In this document: positions 47,848-58,960 of the stretch, one piece after another
How the letters are laid out: the number at the start of each line of letters is the position of its first letter
Position numbering within the stretch: the stretch's first letter is position 1
Made by a program: the position numbers and the translations under genes
From: Synechococcus sp. CS-1329
GTDB taxonomy: Bacteria; Cyanobacteriota; Cyanobacteriia; PCC-6307; Cyanobiaceae
DNA: 64,000 bases
Direction of reading: 5' to 3'
Assembly: GCF_025128055.1 (NCBI RefSeq)
Contig: NZ_JAHLYS010000036.1
Span: forward strand, 1-64,000
The notes under the pieces: generated by a model
What the model was told of the DNA's origin: nothing
Databases searched by the model: none
Seen by the model: only the letters and a program-made list of their open reading frames with translations

Positions 47848-50824
47848 TCCGCCAGCTGGCCAGTTGCCAGGGCGCCACCCAGGTGAGCGTTGGGCCGCCA
47901 GGGCTGGCGGCCGCCGCTTCCGGTGGAACTGTGGTCGCCTCTCCCAGCCCGTCAATGCGCTCCAGCGGCTCCCACCCGCCCGCCAGCTCCAGCCAGCGGC
48001 GACAGGGGGAGAGGTTCTGCACGGTCAGCCGGGCCAGGCCCTGACCTTCGCTGATGCAGCTGATCAGGCGCAGGTCGGGGTGACCCAGCTGCAGCGCTGA
48101 TCCCGGCACGGCTGCGGTCCAACCCTTGGCCGGCCGCAGCCAGCAGGGTTCGCGGAAGCGCCGCGCCGCCACCGTCACGCCGGCCTGGCGCCAGCCCTGG
48201 GCACAGGGCATCAGAGCCAGACGCAGGCGCTGGGGCCCGTTATCGGCGCCGGGGTCGGGCCAGGTGGGCCCGCGCAGCAGCGAAACACCGAGGGCCTCAG
48301 GGCTGCCGGACACTCCCTGGGGCCCATCGAGCAGCACCGCCAGGCCGCCGCCTGGGGCCTGGCTCGCCAGCCAGCTGATGGCCGGCACCTCCCAGCGGCT
48401 GGCTTCCCGTGCCGTGGCGGCCGCTGCGACCCGCTCGATCACGCCCGCACTGGTGTCGGCCGCCCAGCGCACGGCCTGGTGCTGCAGCGGCAGCTCCAGG
48501 CGCAGCAGTTCATGGCGCTGGCGCCAGTCGACCCGCAGGTTGAGCTCCAGCCAGGGGCAACCGGCCCGCAGCTGCAGGTCGAGGCGCAGGGCGCTGACGC
48601 CGCAGCGGCCGCGCCAGACCAGGCGGCTGCAGAGCGGACCCACTTCTGCCAGCACCGGGCCCGGCTCCCAGTCCAGAGGCAGGGGGTGCTGGCGGTAGTC
48701 GGCGGCCAGATCCCAGGCATCCCAGAATTCACCGCGATCGATCCAGCGCCGCCACTGCAGCGGCTTGGCCAGCTGGGGACTGTGGTCGGCGCCCCAGAGC
48801 TGCTCAAGGCCGAGGGGACCGAGCTGGGCCCAGAGCAGGCCATTGCCCAGCCGCCAGCGCCCACCGGCCCCAAGGCTCTCCAGCCGCACCGGATGGGCGA
48901 TCGAGGCCTCAGCGTCAGCGGCCAGGGGCGGCAGTGCCCCAGGCCGCTGACGCTGACGGCTGAGCTGGAGGGCCGCCACACCGCCGGGAGAGGGCAACTG
49001 CAGCCAGTGGCCGCCCGCTGGGGCGGGCTGCGAGGGCAGGGGTTGCCCCCCCAGGGTCCAGTGGCCCGACGGCAGGCGCAGGGTGAGGGGGGCCGGCGGC
49101 AGGGGCTGCAGCTGAACCCACCACCACGGTTCCGCCTCGCCTCCCGGCTCAACCTCAGAGCCCTGCTCCTGGGCCTTGGCCCCAGCGGGCTCCAGCCAGG
49201 CCCGCAGCGCCCGGTCACGGCGGCGGGAGGCCTGGCGGCGCGCTGCCCGCCACTGGGGTTCAGCCTGCTCGAACACCTCCGGGATGGAGGTGCCCGGCAG
49301 GATGTCGTGAAATTGCTGGAACAGCAGCTCTCGCCAGCCATTCGGATCCGCAGGATCAGCGGGCTCCCCGAGCAGGACAGCGGCGAGGTCAGCCTCGCGC
49401 AGCAGCCGCTCCAGGCTGCGGTTGTGGCGCTTCTGGTCGGGGCGGCTGGTGGCGCAGCCCCGGTGCAGCTCCAGGTAGAGCTCATCACGCCAGACGGGCA
49501 GCTGGGCGCCCAGGGGCTCCAGCCGCTGCAGGTAGTCGCGCAGGCTGCCGTGCCGCTGGGGCGCCGTGGCCACGTCGTCACGCCAGAGGTCCAGCTGTTC
49601 CAGCATTTCGCGGGTCGGCCCGCCACCGTGGTCCCCCACCCCCGGCAGCCACAGGGCCTCGGCGTCGCCCGTGGCCGCCTGCCACTCCAGGCGGTAGCGC
49701 TCCATCGCCAGGGGATCGCCATCGGTGCCGATCGGGGCACTCATCAGGGCCAGCACCTCGGCGCCACAGCGGCTGCGCCAGCGGAAGAGCCTGTGGGGAA
49801 AAGGGTTCGTGGCGTTCCAGGCCAGCTTGTGGGTGCAGAACCAGCGCACACCGGTGGCCGCCGCCACCGCCGGCAGGCCGGCGGCGAAGCCGAAGCTGTC
49901 GGGCAGCCAGGCCAGCTGGTGCTCCCACTCGGGGAAGGTCCGGCGGCTGTAGGCCTGACCCTCCTGGAACTGCCTCAGCAGCGAGGCCGAATCGAGCAGC
50001 ACGCAATCGCTCTCCACCCAGGGGCCATTGATCGGCTCCCAGCGGCCGGCGCGCATGGCGGCACGGATCCGCTCGAACAGTTCAGGCCGGTGACGCTCCA
50101 GCCAGGCGTAGAGCGCCGGCGTGGAGTGGCCGAAATGAAGATCCCGGTGCTGCTCGATCAGATCGAGGGCCGAGCGGAACGTGCGCTCAGCGGCCTGCCA
50201 GGTGTCGGCCACCGGCCAGAGCCAGGCCAGGTCGAGGTGGGCGTGGCCGAGCAGATGGAAGGAGCCGAGCGGTCCAGCAGGCGCGGCCTGGCGCAGCTGC
50301 TCCAGCTCCAGCCGCGTGGCCACCAGCAGACCGTCCGGGTCAGCCGGATCCAGGGGCTCCGCCTCGATCCGGCTGAGCATCAGGGCGCCGTCGTCGTGGA
50401 GGGGGCTGCGCAACTCCAGCTCCAGGCGCAGGGGTGCCCCCTCCCACCAGCGCTGCGGCAGGGCCCAGCGGCAGGAGCTGTCAAAGAGATCACCGCGGTG
50501 AACGGTGCGGCCGTCGACCCGGAGTTCGGCGGCGTCAGCCCACCAGCGCAGGGCCAGGCGGGCCAGCGCTGGAGCCCGCCCGCGCCAGCTGGGGGGGCAG
50601 CTTAGCTCCTGCACCAGCCGCCGGGTCTGCCCACCCCGCGGCCAGGCGATCAGCCCGCGGGCGTGCCAGTCGGGACGATGAAGTCGGGCCCAGGGGTCGG
50701 CCAGGGCTCCCTGCCAGCAGCCATCAGCTCCCTGCCGCTGCCAGGCGGAGAGCAGGTCAAGTTTCGAACGTGATCGAAACGTTTCAATCTCAGGGGGAAG
50801 CTGGGGGTCCAGGGCCTGCGTCAT
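47816..50824 (-). CDS. Glycoside hydrolase family 38 alpha-mannosidase
   Basis: A 1002-residue GH38 enzyme. The catalytic domain has the zinc motif HLLGHAHLDLAWLWP (H196, D198), FGHSTPALYAWLERH, GRWEPINGPWVESD and WLPDSFGFAAGLP (nucleophile D309); the C-terminal half is a beta-rich mannosidase domain. Such enzymes trim alpha-mannosides in glycan turnover. In a picocyanobacterium the substrate is unclear: envelope or storage mannans are candidates. Its last codons overlap psbN. Confidence 0.9.
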   Translation of the reverse strand: MTQALDPQLPPEIETFRSRSKLDLLSAWQRQGADGCWQGALADPWARLHRPDWHARGLIAWPRGGQTRRLVQELSCPPSWRGRAPALARLALRWWADAAELRVDGRTVHRGDLFDSSCRWALPQRWWEGAPLRLELELRSPLHDDGALMLSRIEAEPLDPADPDGLLVATRLELEQLRQAAPAGPLGSFHLLGHAHLDLAWLWPVADTWQAAERTFRSALDLIEQHRDLHFGHSTPALYAWLERHRPELFERIRAAMRAGRWEPINGPWVESDCVLLDSASLLRQFQEGQAYSRRTFPEWEHQLAWLPDSFGFAAGLPAVAAATGVRWFCTHKLAWNATNPFPHRLFRWRSRCGAEVLALMSAPIGTDGDPLAMERYRLEWQAATGDAEALWLPGVGDHGGGPTREMLEQLDLWRDDVATAPQRHGSLRDYLQRLEPLGAQLPVWRDELYLELHRGCATSRPDQKRHNRSLERLLREADLAAVLLGEPADPADPNGWRELLFQQFHDILPGTSIPEVFEQAEPQWRAARRQASRRRDRALRAWLEPAGAKAQEQGSEVEPGGEAEPWWWVQLQPLPPAPLTLRLPSGHWTLGGQPLPSQPAPAGGHWLQLPSPGGVAALQLSRQRQRPGALPPLAADAEASIAHPVRLESLGAGGRWRLGNGLLWAQLGPLGLEQLWGADHSPQLAKPLQWRRWIDRGEFWDAWDLAADYRQHPLPLDWEPGPVLAEVGPLCSRLVWRGRCGVSALRLDLQLRAGCPWLELNLRVDWRQRHELLRLELPLQHQAVRWAADTSAGVIERVAAAATAREASRWEVPAISWLASQAPGGGLAVLLDGPQGVSGSPEALGVSLLRGPTWPDPGADNGPQRLRLALMPCAQGWRQAGVTVAARRFREPCWLRPAKGWTAAVPGSALQLGHPDLRLISCISEGQGLARLTVQNLSPCRRWLELAGGWEPLERIDGLGEATTVPPEAAAASPGGPTLTWVAPWQLASWRISRRGRRRDP

Positions 50825-51142: not shown

Positions 51143-54100
51143 GTGGTGCCCCCAGCAAGGCTTATCCGGTGGACCATCGGGCTTGTGGGCGCGGCAACCC
51201 TGGCAACACCGGCGCTGAGCCGGGCTCAGGACCTGGGCTCCGAGTCGCCGCCGGCGCGCCAGGCTGAAGCTGATCTCAGCGACAGTGAGCCCTCAGCACC
51301 TGAGGCACAGCCCACCCAGCCCGCAGAGGGAGCAGGTCCGGCCTCCGCTGCACCGGCTCGCAGCGAAGCGGCCACCACCAGCCCAGCCGCTGCCACGCAG
51401 CAACCGTCTGCGCCGATCGCCAGTCCGGCCGAAGCCCCTGGCCCTGCGTTGCCTGGGGTTGAACCGGCTGGGGGCCAGCCGCCGGGTCCCGCAGGGGCCC
51501 GTGAAGCCGTTCCTGCAGGCACTCCTTCAACGATCCCGCCCAAGGAGCTGAAGATCAGCGCCGATCAGCAGGGGTTCGACGTGGTGATCAACCGCTTCGT
51601 GGCCAGCGGCAATGTCAAGGCCGTGCTGGCCGGCGGCCGGTTGATGGCCGATCGCCTCGAATACGACACCACCACCCGAACCCTCTACGCCACGGGCAGC
51701 GTGCGTTTCTGGCGTGGCCGGCAGTACGTGCAGGGCAGCCTGCTGCGCTACGGCCTGATCGAAGGAGAAGGGGAGATGGAGGACGTCTACGGCGTTCTCG
51801 ACCTCGAGACCAGCCTGGAGGATCTCGATGTGGAGCAGCCGGCCTCCCTACCGCTCCCCAAACCCGAGCCGATCGCCTGCCCCACGGTGCTGCCCGAAAT
51901 TCCCGACTGGCACCCGCACCCCTGGAGCGCCACCCTCTGGGGCGGGCAGATGTTCCACTCCGATTTCGGCGAGACCTTCTTCGGTCAGGGTGTCTTCCGA
52001 CCGGAGCGGGTGCTGGGCGTTGGCCTGCAGAAGCGACTGATCAAGGCCGGCCCCTTCGCCCTTGAACTCGATTTCAATGCCCTCGGCCACTGGGCCTCCG
52101 CCCAGCGGGGTGGGCGTTTCACCGGCCCCTTCTCCTCCTCCGAAGTGGCCAACCTCTCCACGTCCGCCCAGACCTTCGGCGAATTCACCGGTGGCATCGG
52201 GCTGAGGGCCTGGCTGCAACCCTGGTTGAGCCTGGGTTTCGTGCAGGGGGTGAGCCTCAACACCAACCTCAGCAACTACGAGGACACCTATCGGGAGAGG
52301 TCGGCCCGCCTCCTCAATTACCTGGGCTTCGAGATCGAGGGATCTCTCTCACCCCAGTGGTCGATGGTGGGCAGGATTCATCACCGCTCCGGCGCCTTCG
52401 GCACCTACAACGGCGTCAGAGAGGGCAGTAACGCCTACCTGCTGGGCCTGCGCTATCACTTCGGTGGAGATCCACCGCCTCAGGAGGATCCCCAGGCCAC
52501 GCTGCGCCCTGCCAAGGGCTGCCCCAACCGTGGCGCCGAGCCTCCGGAGCGCCCCCGCTCTCTGCCCGAAGCTCTCGAGCAGACAGCCATGGGTGGCGAG
52601 GCCCCGCTGCCGGCAGCAGAGCCCCCATCCCTCCCTGCGGCCACGACGGCAGCGGCTGATCGCCCGACCTCGTTCCGCGCCATGCGCGAGCAGGAGCGCC
52701 AGCGGGCCGCCGCCGCTGCAGCCATCGAGCAACGCATCTCCGATGTGCAGCAGCGGGAAGGGCTGCAGATCGAGCGCCGCCGGGGAACTGGAACCAGCAA
52801 TGATGTGGCCACCGACCAGGACAGCGACTTCGGACCGTCGCTGCCACCGCAGGTGCGGCGATTGCGTTCGGAGAACAATCGCCAGGCCGTGCAGGGCACC
52901 CTCACCCATCTGCGCTATCAGGCGGCAAGGATCGTGCTCACCGCCGACGGCTGGCGCAGCGACCGCGCCAGCTTCAGCAACGATCCCTTCACACCCTCGC
53001 AGTCGTGGATGGACGCGGATCAGGTGGTGGTCAAGCAGGACGACAACGGTGATCTGCTGATCACCTCCAAGCGCAACCGACTGATCCTGGAAGACCGTCT
53101 CCCCATTCCGGTGACCTCCAGCACTCGCATCAGCAAGCAGCAGGAGGTGGAGAACCGCTGGGTGCTGGGAGTGGATCAGGAGGACCGCGACGGCTTCTAC
53201 GTGGGCCGGCGCCTGCGACCGATCCGGATCGGTCAGAAGGGGATCCTCGAACTGGAGCCGCAGTTCATGCTGGAGCGTGCCTACCAAGGCACCACCGACA
53301 GCTATCCCATCCCCGGCGGCCAGGCCGGCGGTCCCTCGGTCAGCCAGGACAACACCCTGGGCGATCTCTTCGGCCTGGAGGCGCGGCTGGAAACACCGTT
53401 GCTGGGTTTCAACACCAGCTTGAACCTGGATATCTCCACCTTCAATCCCGAGAACCTCGCCAATGGCACCCGCAGCTGGGGCCAGATGAATCGCAACATC
53501 AACCTTCCCCTGGTGGGCGCCACCACGGCCCGGCTCTTCGGGGCCTATCGCTTCAGGATCTGGAATGGATCCCTGGGCGAGCAGGACATCTATTCGGCTT
53601 ATGGCGTCTCCCTGGAGCAAAAAGAGACCCTGCCGAAGTGGGGCAGGCTCAGCAACCGCTACTTCTGGCGGGTGGGTGTAGGCAACTACCAGAGCAATGA
53701 ATTCCTCAGCAGCGGAGAGGAATCCAGGAATCTCGCCCAGCTCTGGCGGGCCAACGCGGTGGCCTCGCTGAACAGCAGCCTGCAGCTCTGGCGGGGAAGG
53801 GCCCTGCCCTCCACACCCGATGGCGCCCTGCGCTACTCGCCCGAACCGATCGTGCCCGGCCTGGCCCTGAACACGAATCTGACCGGCAATCTGGCCTATT
53901 TCGGCGATGGCACCTACCAGAACACCTTCTCAATCTCCGGTGGTCCCACCCTCACCCTGGGGCACTTCAACAAGCGCTTCTTTGATTTCACCCAGCTCAC
54001 GATCACCGGCGGCATCACCCTGCGCGATGGCCTCAGCCCCTTCGGCTTCGATGCAGCGGTGGATCTGGGCACGGTGGGGATCGGCCTCACCCAGCAGATC

Positions 54101-54364
54101 GCCGGACCGCTGCTGTTCAACGGAGGGATCGGCCTCAATGTGGATCCCTCCTCGCCGAATTACGGCGAATTGACCGGGTCCTACGTGGAGCTGCGCTGGC
54201 AGCGCCGTGCCTATGCCTTCAGCGTGTTCTACAGCCCCTTTGAGGGCATCGGCGGAGTGCGGATCCGCCTCAACGACTTCAGCTTCAAGGGAACGGGAGT
54301 ACCGTTCGCTCCCTACCGGCCCGAGTTTGATGCGGTTGGCGGGCCGCGTCAGACCCTGTTCTGA
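51143..54364 (+). CDS. LptD homologue (DUF3769) with an inserted PagL-like beta-barrel
   Basis: A 1073-residue outer-membrane protein. A signal peptide and a 100-residue Ala/Pro linker precede an OstA/LptA-like segment (136-225, GNVKAVLAGGRLMADRLEYD). Residues about 245-442 form an extra barrel-like domain with WSATLWGGQMFHSDFGETFF, RIHHRSGAFG and NAYLLGLRYHFG, resembling lipid A 3-O-deacylase PagL; H414-R415-S416 fits the PagL HxS pair. After a charged linker (445-575), a second OstA-like part and the LptD C-terminal barrel follow. It should insert lipopolysaccharide into the outer membrane. The catalytic status of the insert is unknown. Confidence 0.82.
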   Translation: MVPPARLIRWTIGLVGAATLATPALSRAQDLGSESPPARQAEADLSDSEPSAPEAQPTQPAEGAGPASAAPARSEAATTSPAAATQQPSAPIASPAEAPGPALPGVEPAGGQPPGPAGAREAVPAGTPSTIPPKELKISADQQGFDVVINRFVASGNVKAVLAGGRLMADRLEYDTTTRTLYATGSVRFWRGRQYVQGSLLRYGLIEGEGEMEDVYGVLDLETSLEDLDVEQPASLPLPKPEPIACPTVLPEIPDWHPHPWSATLWGGQMFHSDFGETFFGQGVFRPERVLGVGLQKRLIKAGPFALELDFNALGHWASAQRGGRFTGPFSSSEVANLSTSAQTFGEFTGGIGLRAWLQPWLSLGFVQGVSLNTNLSNYEDTYRERSARLLNYLGFEIEGSLSPQWSMVGRIHHRSGAFGTYNGVREGSNAYLLGLRYHFGGDPPPQEDPQATLRPAKGCPNRGAEPPERPRSLPEALEQTAMGGEAPLPAAEPPSLPAATTAAADRPTSFRAMREQERQRAAAAAAIEQRISDVQQREGLQIERRRGTGTSNDVATDQDSDFGPSLPPQVRRLRSENNRQAVQGTLTHLRYQAARIVLTADGWRSDRASFSNDPFTPSQSWMDADQVVVKQDDNGDLLITSKRNRLILEDRLPIPVTSSTRISKQQEVENRWVLGVDQEDRDGFYVGRRLRPIRIGQKGILELEPQFMLERAYQGTTDSYPIPGGQAGGPSVSQDNTLGDLFGLEARLETPLLGFNTSLNLDISTFNPENLANGTRSWGQMNRNINLPLVGATTARLFGAYRFRIWNGSLGEQDIYSAYGVSLEQKETLPKWGRLSNRYFWRVGVGNYQSNEFLSSGEESRNLAQLWRANAVASLNSSLQLWRGRALPSTPDGALRYSPEPIVPGLALNTNLTGNLAYFGDGTYQNTFSISGGPTLTLGHFNKRFFDFTQLTITGGITLRDGLSPFGFDAAVDLGTVGIGLTQQIAGPLLFNGGIGLNVDPSSPNYGELTGSYVELRWQRRAYAFSVFYSPFEGIGGVRIRLNDFSFKGTGVPFAPYRPEFDAVGGPRQTLF

Positions 54365-54399: not shown

Positions 54400-55026
54400 T
54401 CAGTGAAAGCCGTTGGCGTAGGGCAGGGCCGCCAGGGTGCGGCTGAGTTCGGCGTGGTGGGAGAGCAGCTGGCCGGTGGCATCCCACTGGCCCGTGGTCA
54501 GCATCTGCAGCGGCCCGGCGGGAAGTTCCAGAGGCCAGCGCTGGCCGTAGCCCTCGAGGCTGGCCTCGGCCAGGGTCAAGCTGAGGGGCTCGGTGGGGGC
54601 GGCCAGGGCCGCCTCCTGCAGGGCGCGCATGGTGTCGTGACCGGCCGTCAGGCAGGGCAGGCCCAGGGCGAGGCAGTTGCCATAGAAAATCTCGGCGAAG
54701 CTTTCGCCCACCAGAGCCCGGATGCCCCAGCGCATCAACGCCTGGGGAGCATGTTCGCGGCTGGAGCCACAGCCGAAGTTGCGGTTGACCAGCAGCAGCG
54801 AGGCCCCCTGGTGCTCCGCCCGGTCGAAGGGATGGGCCCCGGCCAGCTCGGTGCGGTCATCGGCAAAGGCCCCTTCAGCCAGGCCCTCGAAGCTGACGCA
54901 CTTGAGAAAACGGGCCGGGATGATCCGGTCGGTGTCGATGTCATCGCCGCGCACCACCACAGCGGTGCCGGTGATGCTGGCGATCGGGCCGGCCGGGAAG
55001 GGCCGGGGGGGCAGGGAGCTGCTCAT
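54400..55026 (-). CDS. leuD: 3-isopropylmalate dehydratase small subunit
   Basis: Swivel subunit of isopropylmalate isomerase in leucine synthesis. The 208-residue protein has GDDIDTDRIIPARFL, LVNRNFGCGSSREHAPQAL and FAEIFYGNCLALGLP. It follows leuC on the same strand after 63 bases. Length is normal. Confidence 0.96.
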   Translation of the reverse strand: MSSSLPPRPFPAGPIASITGTAVVVRGDDIDTDRIIPARFLKCVSFEGLAEGAFADDRTELAGAHPFDRAEHQGASLLLVNRNFGCGSSREHAPQALMRWGIRALVGESFAEIFYGNCLALGLPCLTAGHDTMRALQEAALAAPTEPLSLTLAEASLEGYGQRWPLELPAGPLQMLTTGQWDATGQLLSHHAELSRTLAALPYANGFH

Positions 55027-55089
55027 GGCAGGAGGCGGGGCACGGAACGGGGCAAGGGGGCGGATCGAGGCGGAGACCGGCGGCGGCGC

Positions 55090-56523
55090 TCAGCCCACCG
55101 GCACCTGCAGCGGCACGAGGGCCAGCAGCTCGCGCACATCGCTCACCCGGCCGGTGACGGCGGCGGCGGCCACCATGGCGGGGCTCATCAGCAGGGTGCG
55201 GCCGGAGGCGGAACCCTGGCGGCCCTTGAAGTTGCGGTTGCTGGAGCTGGCGCTGATCTGGCGACCTTCGAGGCGGTCGGGATTCATCGCCAGGCACATC
55301 GAGCAACCCGGCTCGCGCCACTCGAAGCCGGCCGCCGTGAACACGGCATCGAGGCCCTCGGCCTCGGCGGCGGCCGCCACCTGCTCCGAGCCCGGCACCA
55401 CAAAGGCCTTGAGGCCCGGGGCCACCTGACGGCCCCGGGCCACGGCCGCCGCCGCCTGCAGATCACTGAGGCGACCGTTGGTGCAGCTGCCGATGAAGCA
55501 GACATCGACCGGAACTCCAGCGATCGGCATGCCGGGCTGGAGGTCCATGTAGCGGTAGGCCTCCTCCGCCAGCGGACGCTCATCCACCGGGGTATCGGCC
55601 AGGCTGGGCACCGACTCATCGACGCCGATGCCCTGACCCGGGGTGATGCCCCAGGTGACGGTGGGGGCAATCGTGCCGGCCTCAAAGACCACCTCGTCGT
55701 CGAATACGGCGTCAGCCCCGCTGGCCAGGCTGCTCCACCAGGCCACGGCCCGATCCCAGGCCTCGCCCTCGGGCGCGAAAGGCCTGCCCTGGATGTAAGC
55801 GAAGGTGGTGGCATCGGGGTTGACATAGCCACAGCGGGCGCCCCCTTCAATGGCCATGTTGCACAGGGTCATGCGCTCCTCCATCGAGAGGGCCTCGATG
55901 CAGGATCCAGCGAATTCATAGGCGTAGCCCACACCGCCCTTCACCCCCAGGCTGCGGATGATGTGCAGCACCAGATCCTTGGCGAACACGCCCGGCTGCA
56001 GGCGACCCTCCACCAGGATCCGCCGCACCTTGAGCTTGTTCATCGCCAGGCTCTGGCTGGCGAGCACATCCCGCACCTGGCTGGTGCCGATGCCGAAGGC
56101 GATCGCGCCGAAGGCCCCGTGGGTGGAGGTGTGCGAGTCGCCGCAGGCGACGGTCATACCGGGCTGGGTGAGGCCCAGTTCCGGGGCGATCACGTGGACG
56201 ATGCCCTGACGACCACTGCCGAGGCCGTGCAGGGTGATGGCGTGCTCGGCGCAGTTGCGCTCCAGGGTGGCGAGCATCTCCTCGGCCAGGGGATCGGCGA
56301 AGGGCCGCGCCTGGGAGGTGGTGGGCACGATGTGATCCACCGTGGCCACGGTGCGCTCGGGGTGGCGCACCCCCAGGCCCAGATCGCGCAGGGCCGCGAA
56401 AGCCTGAGGGCTGGTCACCTCGTGGATCAGGTGCAGGCCGATGAACAGCTGGGTGGAGCCGCCCGGCAGCTCGGCCACGCGGTGCCGGTCCCAGACCTTG
56501 TCGTACAGCGTGCCGGCGCTCAC
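55090..56523 (-). CDS. leuC: 3-isopropylmalate dehydratase large subunit
   Basis: Aconitase-type subunit that carries the [4Fe-4S] cluster. The 477-residue protein has [41 protein letters not shown], the first cluster cysteine in [13 protein letters not shown], the remaining two in [13 protein letters not shown], and [12 protein letters not shown]. It forms an operon with leuD. Confidence 0.97.
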
Positions 56524-56550
56524 CGTGCCCCCGAGTCAAGACAGGCCAGC

Positions 56551-57858
56551 CTAGGTCGGGGGGGCCTGGCCTTCGCTCTGGGTCTGGGCAAGCAGACGCA
56601 GCCGCAGGCGGTTGAGGGCCTCACCGGCGCTGACCGCCTGGATCCAGTCGCGGCTGCGGCCAGCGCCGAAACGCACCCCCTCACTGGTGCTGCCCTGGGG
56701 CCCAGCCAGGGCGATATGCACGAGCCCCACAGGCTTTTCGGCGCTGCCACCGCCCGGGCCGGCGACGCCCGTGAGGGCCAGGGCCCAGGTGCTGCCGGTG
56801 ACCCGCCGCGCCCCTTCGGCCATGGCGATCGCCACCGGGTCACTCACCGCTCCATGGGCCTCAAGCGTGGCGGCAGGCACCCCCAGCAGCCCCTGCTTGA
56901 CGGAATTGGCATAGGCGATCACACCGCCGAGGAAAGCCTCGGAAGATCCGGGCACCGCCGCCAGGGCCGCACCCAGCCCACCACCGGTGCAGGATTCCGC
57001 CACCGCCAGGGTCTCCCGCCGCCGCCGCAGCAGCTCCAGGCAACAGGACGCCTGGCTGTCGTCGTCGACTCCGTAGAACCAGGCCCCCAGCCGCTGGCGC
57101 AGCTCAGCCTCCAGCGGGGCCAGGAGCTCCTCGGCCTGAAGGAGTGTGGGGCCCTGGGCCGTGATCCGCAGCTTCACCTCACCGGTGCCGGCATAGGGGG
57201 CCACGGTGGGATTGGCCAGCTCCAGCAGGTCGGCCACCTGCTCCGCCAGGCGCGATTCCCCCGCCCCCCAGAAGCGCAGGATCCGACTGAGGAACACCCC
57301 CTCGGCCAGGCCCTGCCCCCGCAGCCAGGGGGCCGCCGTGGCGGCCCACATCGCCCGCAACTCGGAGGGCACTCCGGGGAAGGTGAGCAGGCTGAAACCC
57401 GGCTTGGGGGTCCAGATCATTCCGGGAGCCGTGCCCAGCGGGTTGGCCAGCACGGCCGCTCCGACAGGCAGCAGAGCCTGCTTGCGGTTGCTTGGCGAAG
57501 GGGTGCGGCCCAGGGCCGCGAACTTGGCCTGGATGTCGCTCCACACCTCAGGGCACTCCTGAAGCGGAGTGGTGAAGGCGGCGGCCAGGGCCTCGGTGGT
57601 GAGGTCGTCGGGGGTGGGTCCGAGCCCACCGGTGCAGATCAGCACCCGGCAGCGGCTGGAGGCCTCCCGCACCATGGCGATCAGTCGCTCACGGTTGTCC
57701 CCCACCACCGACTGGCGGTAGTGGGGCAGCCCCAGGCCCGCCAGCTGCTCCCCCAGCCAGCGGGCATTGCTGTTGAGGATGTTGCCCAGCAGCAGCTCGG
57801 TGCCGATGCAGAGAATCTCGCAGCCGCCGCTCTCAGGGCTTCGGGTCACACTCGGCAT
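56551..57858 (-). CDS. cinA: CinA-like protein (nicotinamide-nucleotide amidase / competence-damage domain)
   Basis: A 435-residue two-domain protein: an N-terminal MoCF-like domain (about 10-180, [40 protein letters not shown]) and a C-terminal CinA amidase domain (about 265-430, [37 protein letters not shown]). It recycles NMN and ADP-ribose pyrophosphate in other bacteria. Start ATG 57858 overlaps the upstream WecA-like gene by 26 bases. Confidence 0.93.
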
Positions 57859-58960
57859 CACAGGGGATGGTGTTGGAGGCGGAATCGCCCAGCAGCCTGC
57901 GCTGGCGACGGGATCCCATCACCGCGCCGATCAGCACGGCCGTGGCCAGGGCCAGCCAGAGGAAGCGCAGCTCCACATTGGCCGCCACCAGCGCCAGAGC
58001 TGCCAGCCACTGGGTGAAGGCATAGATCAGCAGCACCGTGCGGCGATGGCTGAACCCGGCCCGCAGCAGCCGGTGATGCAGATGGCGCCGATCGGGATAA
58101 AAAGGCGAGTGCCCCTCGCTGAGTCGGCCCATGATCACCGCTGACATGTCGGCCAGGGGCAGCGAGAGGATCAGCAGCGGGAACAGCAGGCTGACGGTGG
58201 TGAGCCCCTTGGCCGGGCCGACGATGCTGATGGCCGCCAGGGCAAAACCGAGGAAATAGGAGCCGCCGTCGCCCATGAAGATGCGGGCGGGGTTGAAGTT
58301 GTGGCGAAGGAAGCCGAGGCAGGCACCGGCCAGGGCGGCGGCCAGCAGGCCGGCGGCGCTCTGCTGGAGGCTGAAGCTCACCGAAAGCAGACCCACCGCG
58401 GCGATGCCACCCACACCGGCCGCCAGGCCGTCGAGGCCATCGATCCAGTTGATGGCGTTGGTGATGCCCACCAGCCAGATCACCGTGGCCAGCAGGCTGA
58501 GGCTGTCGGGCAGGGGAAAGGCCAGCGACGGCAGACCGAACCATCCCAGGGGCAGATCGATCGCTCCGATGCGCACTCCTTCACTCCAGACCACCACCGC
58601 CACAGCCACCTGGCCGGCCAGGCGGGGCAGAGGCGGCAGGGCAAACAGGTCGTCGGCCAAGCCGATCACGAAATAGCAGAGCGCACCGGCCAGGGTGGTC
58701 CAGATCAGCTGGTCCCGATCCGGCGCCAGGGTGCCGAAGCCCCCCCGGGCCCAGGTGAAGGCCAGGGCCAGGGAGAAGCCGGCCACCATGCCGATGCCCC
58801 CCAGCCGCACCATCGGCACATCGTGCTGCTTGCGCGAATCCGGGGGATCGAAGAGGCCGTAATGCAGCCCCACCCTGCGCACCAGCGGCACGATCAGAGC
58901 CGTGAGCAGGGCCGCGATCACCAAGGTGATGAGGGCCGAGGTGAGCGGAGTGGCGGCCAT
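57833..58960 (-). CDS. WecA/MraY-type polyprenyl-phosphate sugar-1-phosphate transferase
   Basis: A 375-residue membrane protein with about eleven helices. Motifs: [21 protein letters not shown] (N-terminal loop), [49 protein letters not shown] and [11 protein letters not shown] (His-rich loop). These mark the WecA/TagO group, which starts O-antigen, teichoic or capsular glycan synthesis by moving HexNAc-1-phosphate to undecaprenyl phosphate. Confidence 0.9.

Follow-up and report, generated by a model that had tools for sequence, protein, structure and literature searches.

LptD has, to our knowledge, been regarded as a transporter only. An LptD-type gene of Synechococcus sp. CS-1329 raises the question of whether such a protein could also edit the lipid that it inserts. 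The gene lies in a stretch of 64,000 nucleotides that was analyzed as a whole (here called the window), and the initial annotation, made from the letters of this DNA, described it as an LptD homolog with an inserted PagL-like lipid A deacylase domain, in which H414 and S416 would fit an HxS pair and E427 would lie at nearly the right distance for the catalytic Glu.

To place this domain, we examined its host gene (Table 1). A translation check confirmed a genuine open reading frame of 1,073 amino acids with a GTG start, which is backed by an upstream GGAG and by an N terminus common to relatives. In a Pfam scan, the C-terminal half matched PF12600 (DUF3769) with an E value of 3.1e-127 (425.6 bits versus a cut-off of 20.5), while PF03968 (LptD_N) scored 18.1 bits at residues 149 to 205 versus a cut-off of 20.4; strands were modeled there. 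LptD structures made up the best 13 Foldseek matches of a full-length model (residues 131 to 1073; pLDDT 79.6), with a best E value of 3.5e-11 and a poor global superposition (TM 0.14 to 0.19), and DUF3769 is used in the literature for cyanobacterial LptD (PMC4365693). By these computations, the encoded protein is a cyanobacterial LptD. Two further long frames in the neighborhood, one of 1,204 amino acids opposite leuD/leuC/cinA-like genes (54403-58017, +) and one of 708 amino acids opposite an alpha-mannosidase-like gene (48479-50605, +), are most likely by-products of high G+C.

Table 1 Features of the LptD-type gene, with positions in the window
Feature	Residues	Position	Strand	Basis
lptD-type gene	1-1073	51143..54364	+	PF12600 match; LptD structures top in Foldseek with full-length model
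Sec-type signal peptide, then Pro/Ala-rich disordered stretch	~1-28, then ~29-130	within 51143..54364	+	
OstA/LptA-like periplasmic jellyroll part	136-225	51548..51817	+	PF03968 score below cut-off; strands in model
Predicted inserted 8-stranded PagL-like β-barrel, ending in an internal OMP-type β-signal (..GLRYHF)	242-442	51866..52468	+	AlphaFold2 model, re-alignment, homologs
Cys246, first of the two mature-protein cysteines, immediately preceding the barrel	246	51878..51880	+	pair in 52/52 insert-bearing LptDs
Asn392, conserved polar residue, lipid side of strand 6	392	52316..52318	+	84/85; parity
His414-x-Ser416, proposed general base and nucleophile (compare PagL His126/Ser128), strand 7	414-416	52382..52390	+	84/85, 85/85; parity; profile-alignment register
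Asn430 and Tyr432, strand 8; Asn430 in place of PagL Glu140	430-432	52430..52438	+	84/85, 85/85; profile-alignment register
Cys460, second mature-protein cysteine, immediately following the barrel	460	52520..52522	+	spacing 205-214 in 52/52
DUF3769: remaining periplasmic domain and LptD barrel	585-1046	52895..54280	+	PF12600; full-length model

The insert, residues 242 to 442, lies between the OstA-like part and DUF3769 and has no match of its own in Pfam or NCBIfam scans or in phmmer and hmmsearch searches of PDB sequences. Using 48 homologs, AlphaFold2 predicted exactly eight strands for this segment alone (pLDDT 88.3, pTM 0.82), and the eight strands are also present in the full-length model, in agreement with the separate barrel-like domain described earlier. 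These computations delimit the domain and its eight predicted strands, and the conservation of residues 242 to 442 as a separate domain is far beyond chance. In Foldseek, the top ranks for the barrel model went to the small outer-membrane barrels Ail, OmpA, and OmpX, and PagL was not among the best 50 PDB matches listed. PagL came first only upon re-alignment of 999 Foldseek-matched PDB chains (2erv_B; Z 16.1, root mean square deviation 2.1 Å, 135/146 residues), followed by a designed barrel (Z 15.2), OprF (Z 15.0 at 2.9 Å), and OmpA (Z 14.6); the lead of PagL over generic 8-stranded barrels in this model-based comparison is modest, about 1 Z unit. A viral structure library searched with the barrel returned generic phage barrels only. 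A comparable small outer-membrane barrel fold is found in proteins of Synechococcus phages S-PM2 and S-CBWM1 (BFVD Q5GQG9 and A0A3G1L3F6).

To assess the proposed active site, we counted conservation across 85 distinct homolog sequences of the insert. The residue numbers first given are correct: HHRSGAFG starts at 413, so that H414, S416, and E427 are as stated, and NAYLLGLRYHFG stands at 430. H413, R415, S416, G417, and Y432 are each conserved in all 85 sequences, N392, H414, and N430 in 84, and E427 in just 68; N392, H414, S416, N430, and Y432 occur together in 83. In one of the two exceptions (L086, from genome G165), H414 is changed to Q together with N430 to T, and the active site of this version may be dead. 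Facing was assigned independently of model coordinates, by splitting each strand by parity and taking the more hydrophobic side as lipid-facing. On this basis, conservation on the lipid side is highest for Y432, S416, N430, H414, L394, and N392, all in strands 6 to 8, and H414 and S416 would point toward the lipid from strand 7, as their PagL counterparts do. Asn392 is a possible oxyanion partner. The suggested HxS pair is thus borne out, whereas E427 as the catalytic Glu is ruled out by its count and by the lack of a Glu in any stand-alone homolog; N430 is the better candidate for the third triad residue.

The PagL triad, His126-Ser128-Glu140, reportedly described by Rutten and colleagues in 2006, lies on the outer wall of its barrel. 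When the insert was aligned by profile (hhalign) with a PagL query sequence identical to chain 2erv_A, PagL R123, H126, S128, and E140 paired with R411, H414, S416, and N430, at a score that is not significant (P 0.29 and 0.47). Across 13 PagL-family sequences, the place of E140 is taken by E, D, or N, and Asn129, which follows the Ser, is invariant; this Asn of the PagL HxSN is absent from the insert, where Gly417 stands in 85 of 85 sequences. The PagL profile (PF09411) matched neither the window's insert nor the stand-alone barrel copies, and the best of 48 insert members reached an E value of 0.62, short of the cut-off. As sequence proof of homology to PagL, searches by phmmer and hmmsearch against PDB sequences, Pfam and NCBIfam scans, and hhalign gave nothing significant. 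The resemblance to PagL suggested by the initial annotation therefore stands for the fold and for H414 and S416 but does not extend to Asn129 or to the profile. Because both the HxSN motif and the profile cut-off fail, we do not claim membership in the PagL family; the best reading is that the insert would work like PagL without being filed as PagL.

A separate PagL gene was searched for in the window's genome and gave no match; among 194 cyanobacterial genomes searched, just one had a true PagL. A minus-strand frame of 314 amino acids (L141, genome G011) is a genuine cyanobacterial PagL (PF09411, E value of 2e-16); its sequence WHHISN has two His residues ahead of the Ser, a feature shared with the insert.

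All 52 distinct LptDs examined with the insert have a Cys on each side of the barrel, 205 to 214 residues apart, and 51 of them have no other cysteine in the mature part. Several insert-less LptDs of Cyanobiaceae have the pair at a spacing of 24 to 32 residues; it is absent from LptDs of some small-genome Cyanobiaceae and from those read outside the family. Alignment of LptDs with and without the insert reveals a clean insertion between the two cysteines, the insert-less proteins of several genera reading ...ACP-(short linker)-GCP.... We infer that C246 and C460 form a disulfide across the barrel base.

To determine how widespread the insert is, we surveyed 201 Cyanobiaceae genomes, as had been suggested. 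LptD was found in 188, including all 130 of good quality, and the insert in 117; LptDs without it are mostly ~660 to 910 amino acids long and those with it mostly ~950 to 1,230. A sequencing or assembly artifact was ruled out, since these 117 genomes and named isolates carry the insert. Unfused barrel proteins occur in one Cyanobiaceae genus (G172, G295, G332, and probably G308) whose LptD is without the barrel, and genome G248 has a second, stand-alone copy beside its fused LptD, in pieces at contig ends (L096 and L097). Two other families also have stand-alone barrels (G350, G506, and G507; G588); those outside Cyanobiaceae are secreted, and some end exactly at a C-terminal Phe, as ordinary outer-membrane proteins do. 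HHRSG and the N-x-Y pair are kept in all stand-alone copies. In a tree of the LptD core, clades without the insert are nested among insert-bearing clades, and insert presence requires five changes, at least three of them forced by well-supported branches; in the barrel tree, the stand-alone copies of Cyanobiaceae sit on long branches. Counts alone fit gain or loss, and the simplest reading is one early gain followed by several losses.

Export and lipid trimming may thus sit in one protein, because a PagL-shaped barrel inside LptD keeps most of the active-site pattern. The protein would be a two-barrel LptD, with a complete 8-stranded outer-membrane barrel between its first jellyroll part and DUF3769. 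On balance, we think it probable that this barrel is a serine esterase of the PagL/OMPLA type that acts on lipid A at the LptD release site, with His414-x-Ser416 of strand 7 and Asn430 of strand 8 on its lipid-facing wall near the outer leaflet. Most likely, it would cleave an ester-linked acyl chain off lipid A at the point of release from LptD; one example is the 3-O-acyl group, which is placed by LpxA. LpxA is present in the window's genome, and this chain is therefore presumably installed. Alternatively, the esterase could act on an acyl lipid of the outer leaflet other than lipid A. According to a review (PMC4515613), two marine Synechococcus strains have lipid A with four acyl chains, a number that neither requires nor excludes a deacylase and by itself is no pointer to deacylation.

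The same conserved residue cluster would suit a different substrate equally well. As an OMPLA-like phospholipase or glycolipase, the barrel would be a serine esterase whose substrates are phospholipids or galactolipids arriving in the outer leaflet near LptD, and it would guard membrane asymmetry, not edit lipid A. We judge this improbable: the insert is predicted to have 8 strands, not 12, it reads HxSG versus HxSNG in OMPLA, and PagL is the top fold on re-alignment. The Asn as third residue does speak for such an enzyme, as the OMPLA triad, His142-Ser144-Asn156, lies on the outside of the barrel (PMC5043575). A barrel that cleaves nothing is rather unlikely. It would serve to steady LptD as a membrane anchor or as a platform for LPS binding, with the His/Ser/Asn cluster binding lipid, and it would accord with the missing PagL Asn129, the nonsignificant PagL profile score, the generic barrels that score nearly as high as PagL, and the apparent loss of the barrel several times. 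For a mere anchor, however, one would not expect a lipid-side His-x-Ser-Asn to be almost perfectly conserved, both in unfused proteins and among homologs as distant as ~40% identity.

With a lipid A esterase as the preferred reading, a broader picture is possible, and we advance it tentatively: across the lineage, the LPS inserter would be fused to a PagL-like editing enzyme of its own, fastened to it by the cysteine pair, and lipid A would be remodeled during insertion in many Synechococcus/Cyanobium-type cyanobacteria. If true, this widespread group of aquatic cyanobacteria would be able to couple the editing of lipid A to its insertion, and the fused barrel could partly account for the simplicity of their lipid A. 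A two-barrel LptD with an internal β-signal is also a natural protein for the study of barrel assembly, and the stand-alone copies allow the enzyme question to be addressed without touching LptD.

Among known systems, the window protein shares the jellyroll and the DUF3769 (PF12600) barrel with other cyanobacterial LptDs, but those outside Cyanobiaceae, in the samples read, have neither the insert nor its flanking cysteines. Its DUF3769 barrel has about 16 strands in the full-length model, far below the 26 of proteobacterial LptD. The insert and PagL (PF09411; 2erv) are alike in an 8-stranded barrel, predicted for the insert, with His-x-Ser where strand 7 ends, an Arg three residues before the His, and a third polar residue where strand 8 begins. 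They differ in that PagL stands alone and the insert lies inside LptD, in Gly for the invariant Asn after the Ser, in Asn for Glu as the third residue (a place where PagL relatives can also have Asn or Asp), and in a last loop that is longer in the insert. OMPLA/PldA likewise has a His-x-Ser ... Asn arrangement on the barrel exterior, where parity places that of the insert, but forms a 12-stranded barrel with HxSNG, versus 8 predicted strands with HxSG; OMPLA is also known for dimerization and calcium dependence. That a single protein can contain multiple membrane barrels is already known; GfcD (Solan et al. 2021, as cited in PMC11494523) resembles the window LptD in having more than one such barrel per chain, is predicted with 12 + 13 strands, and has a different role.
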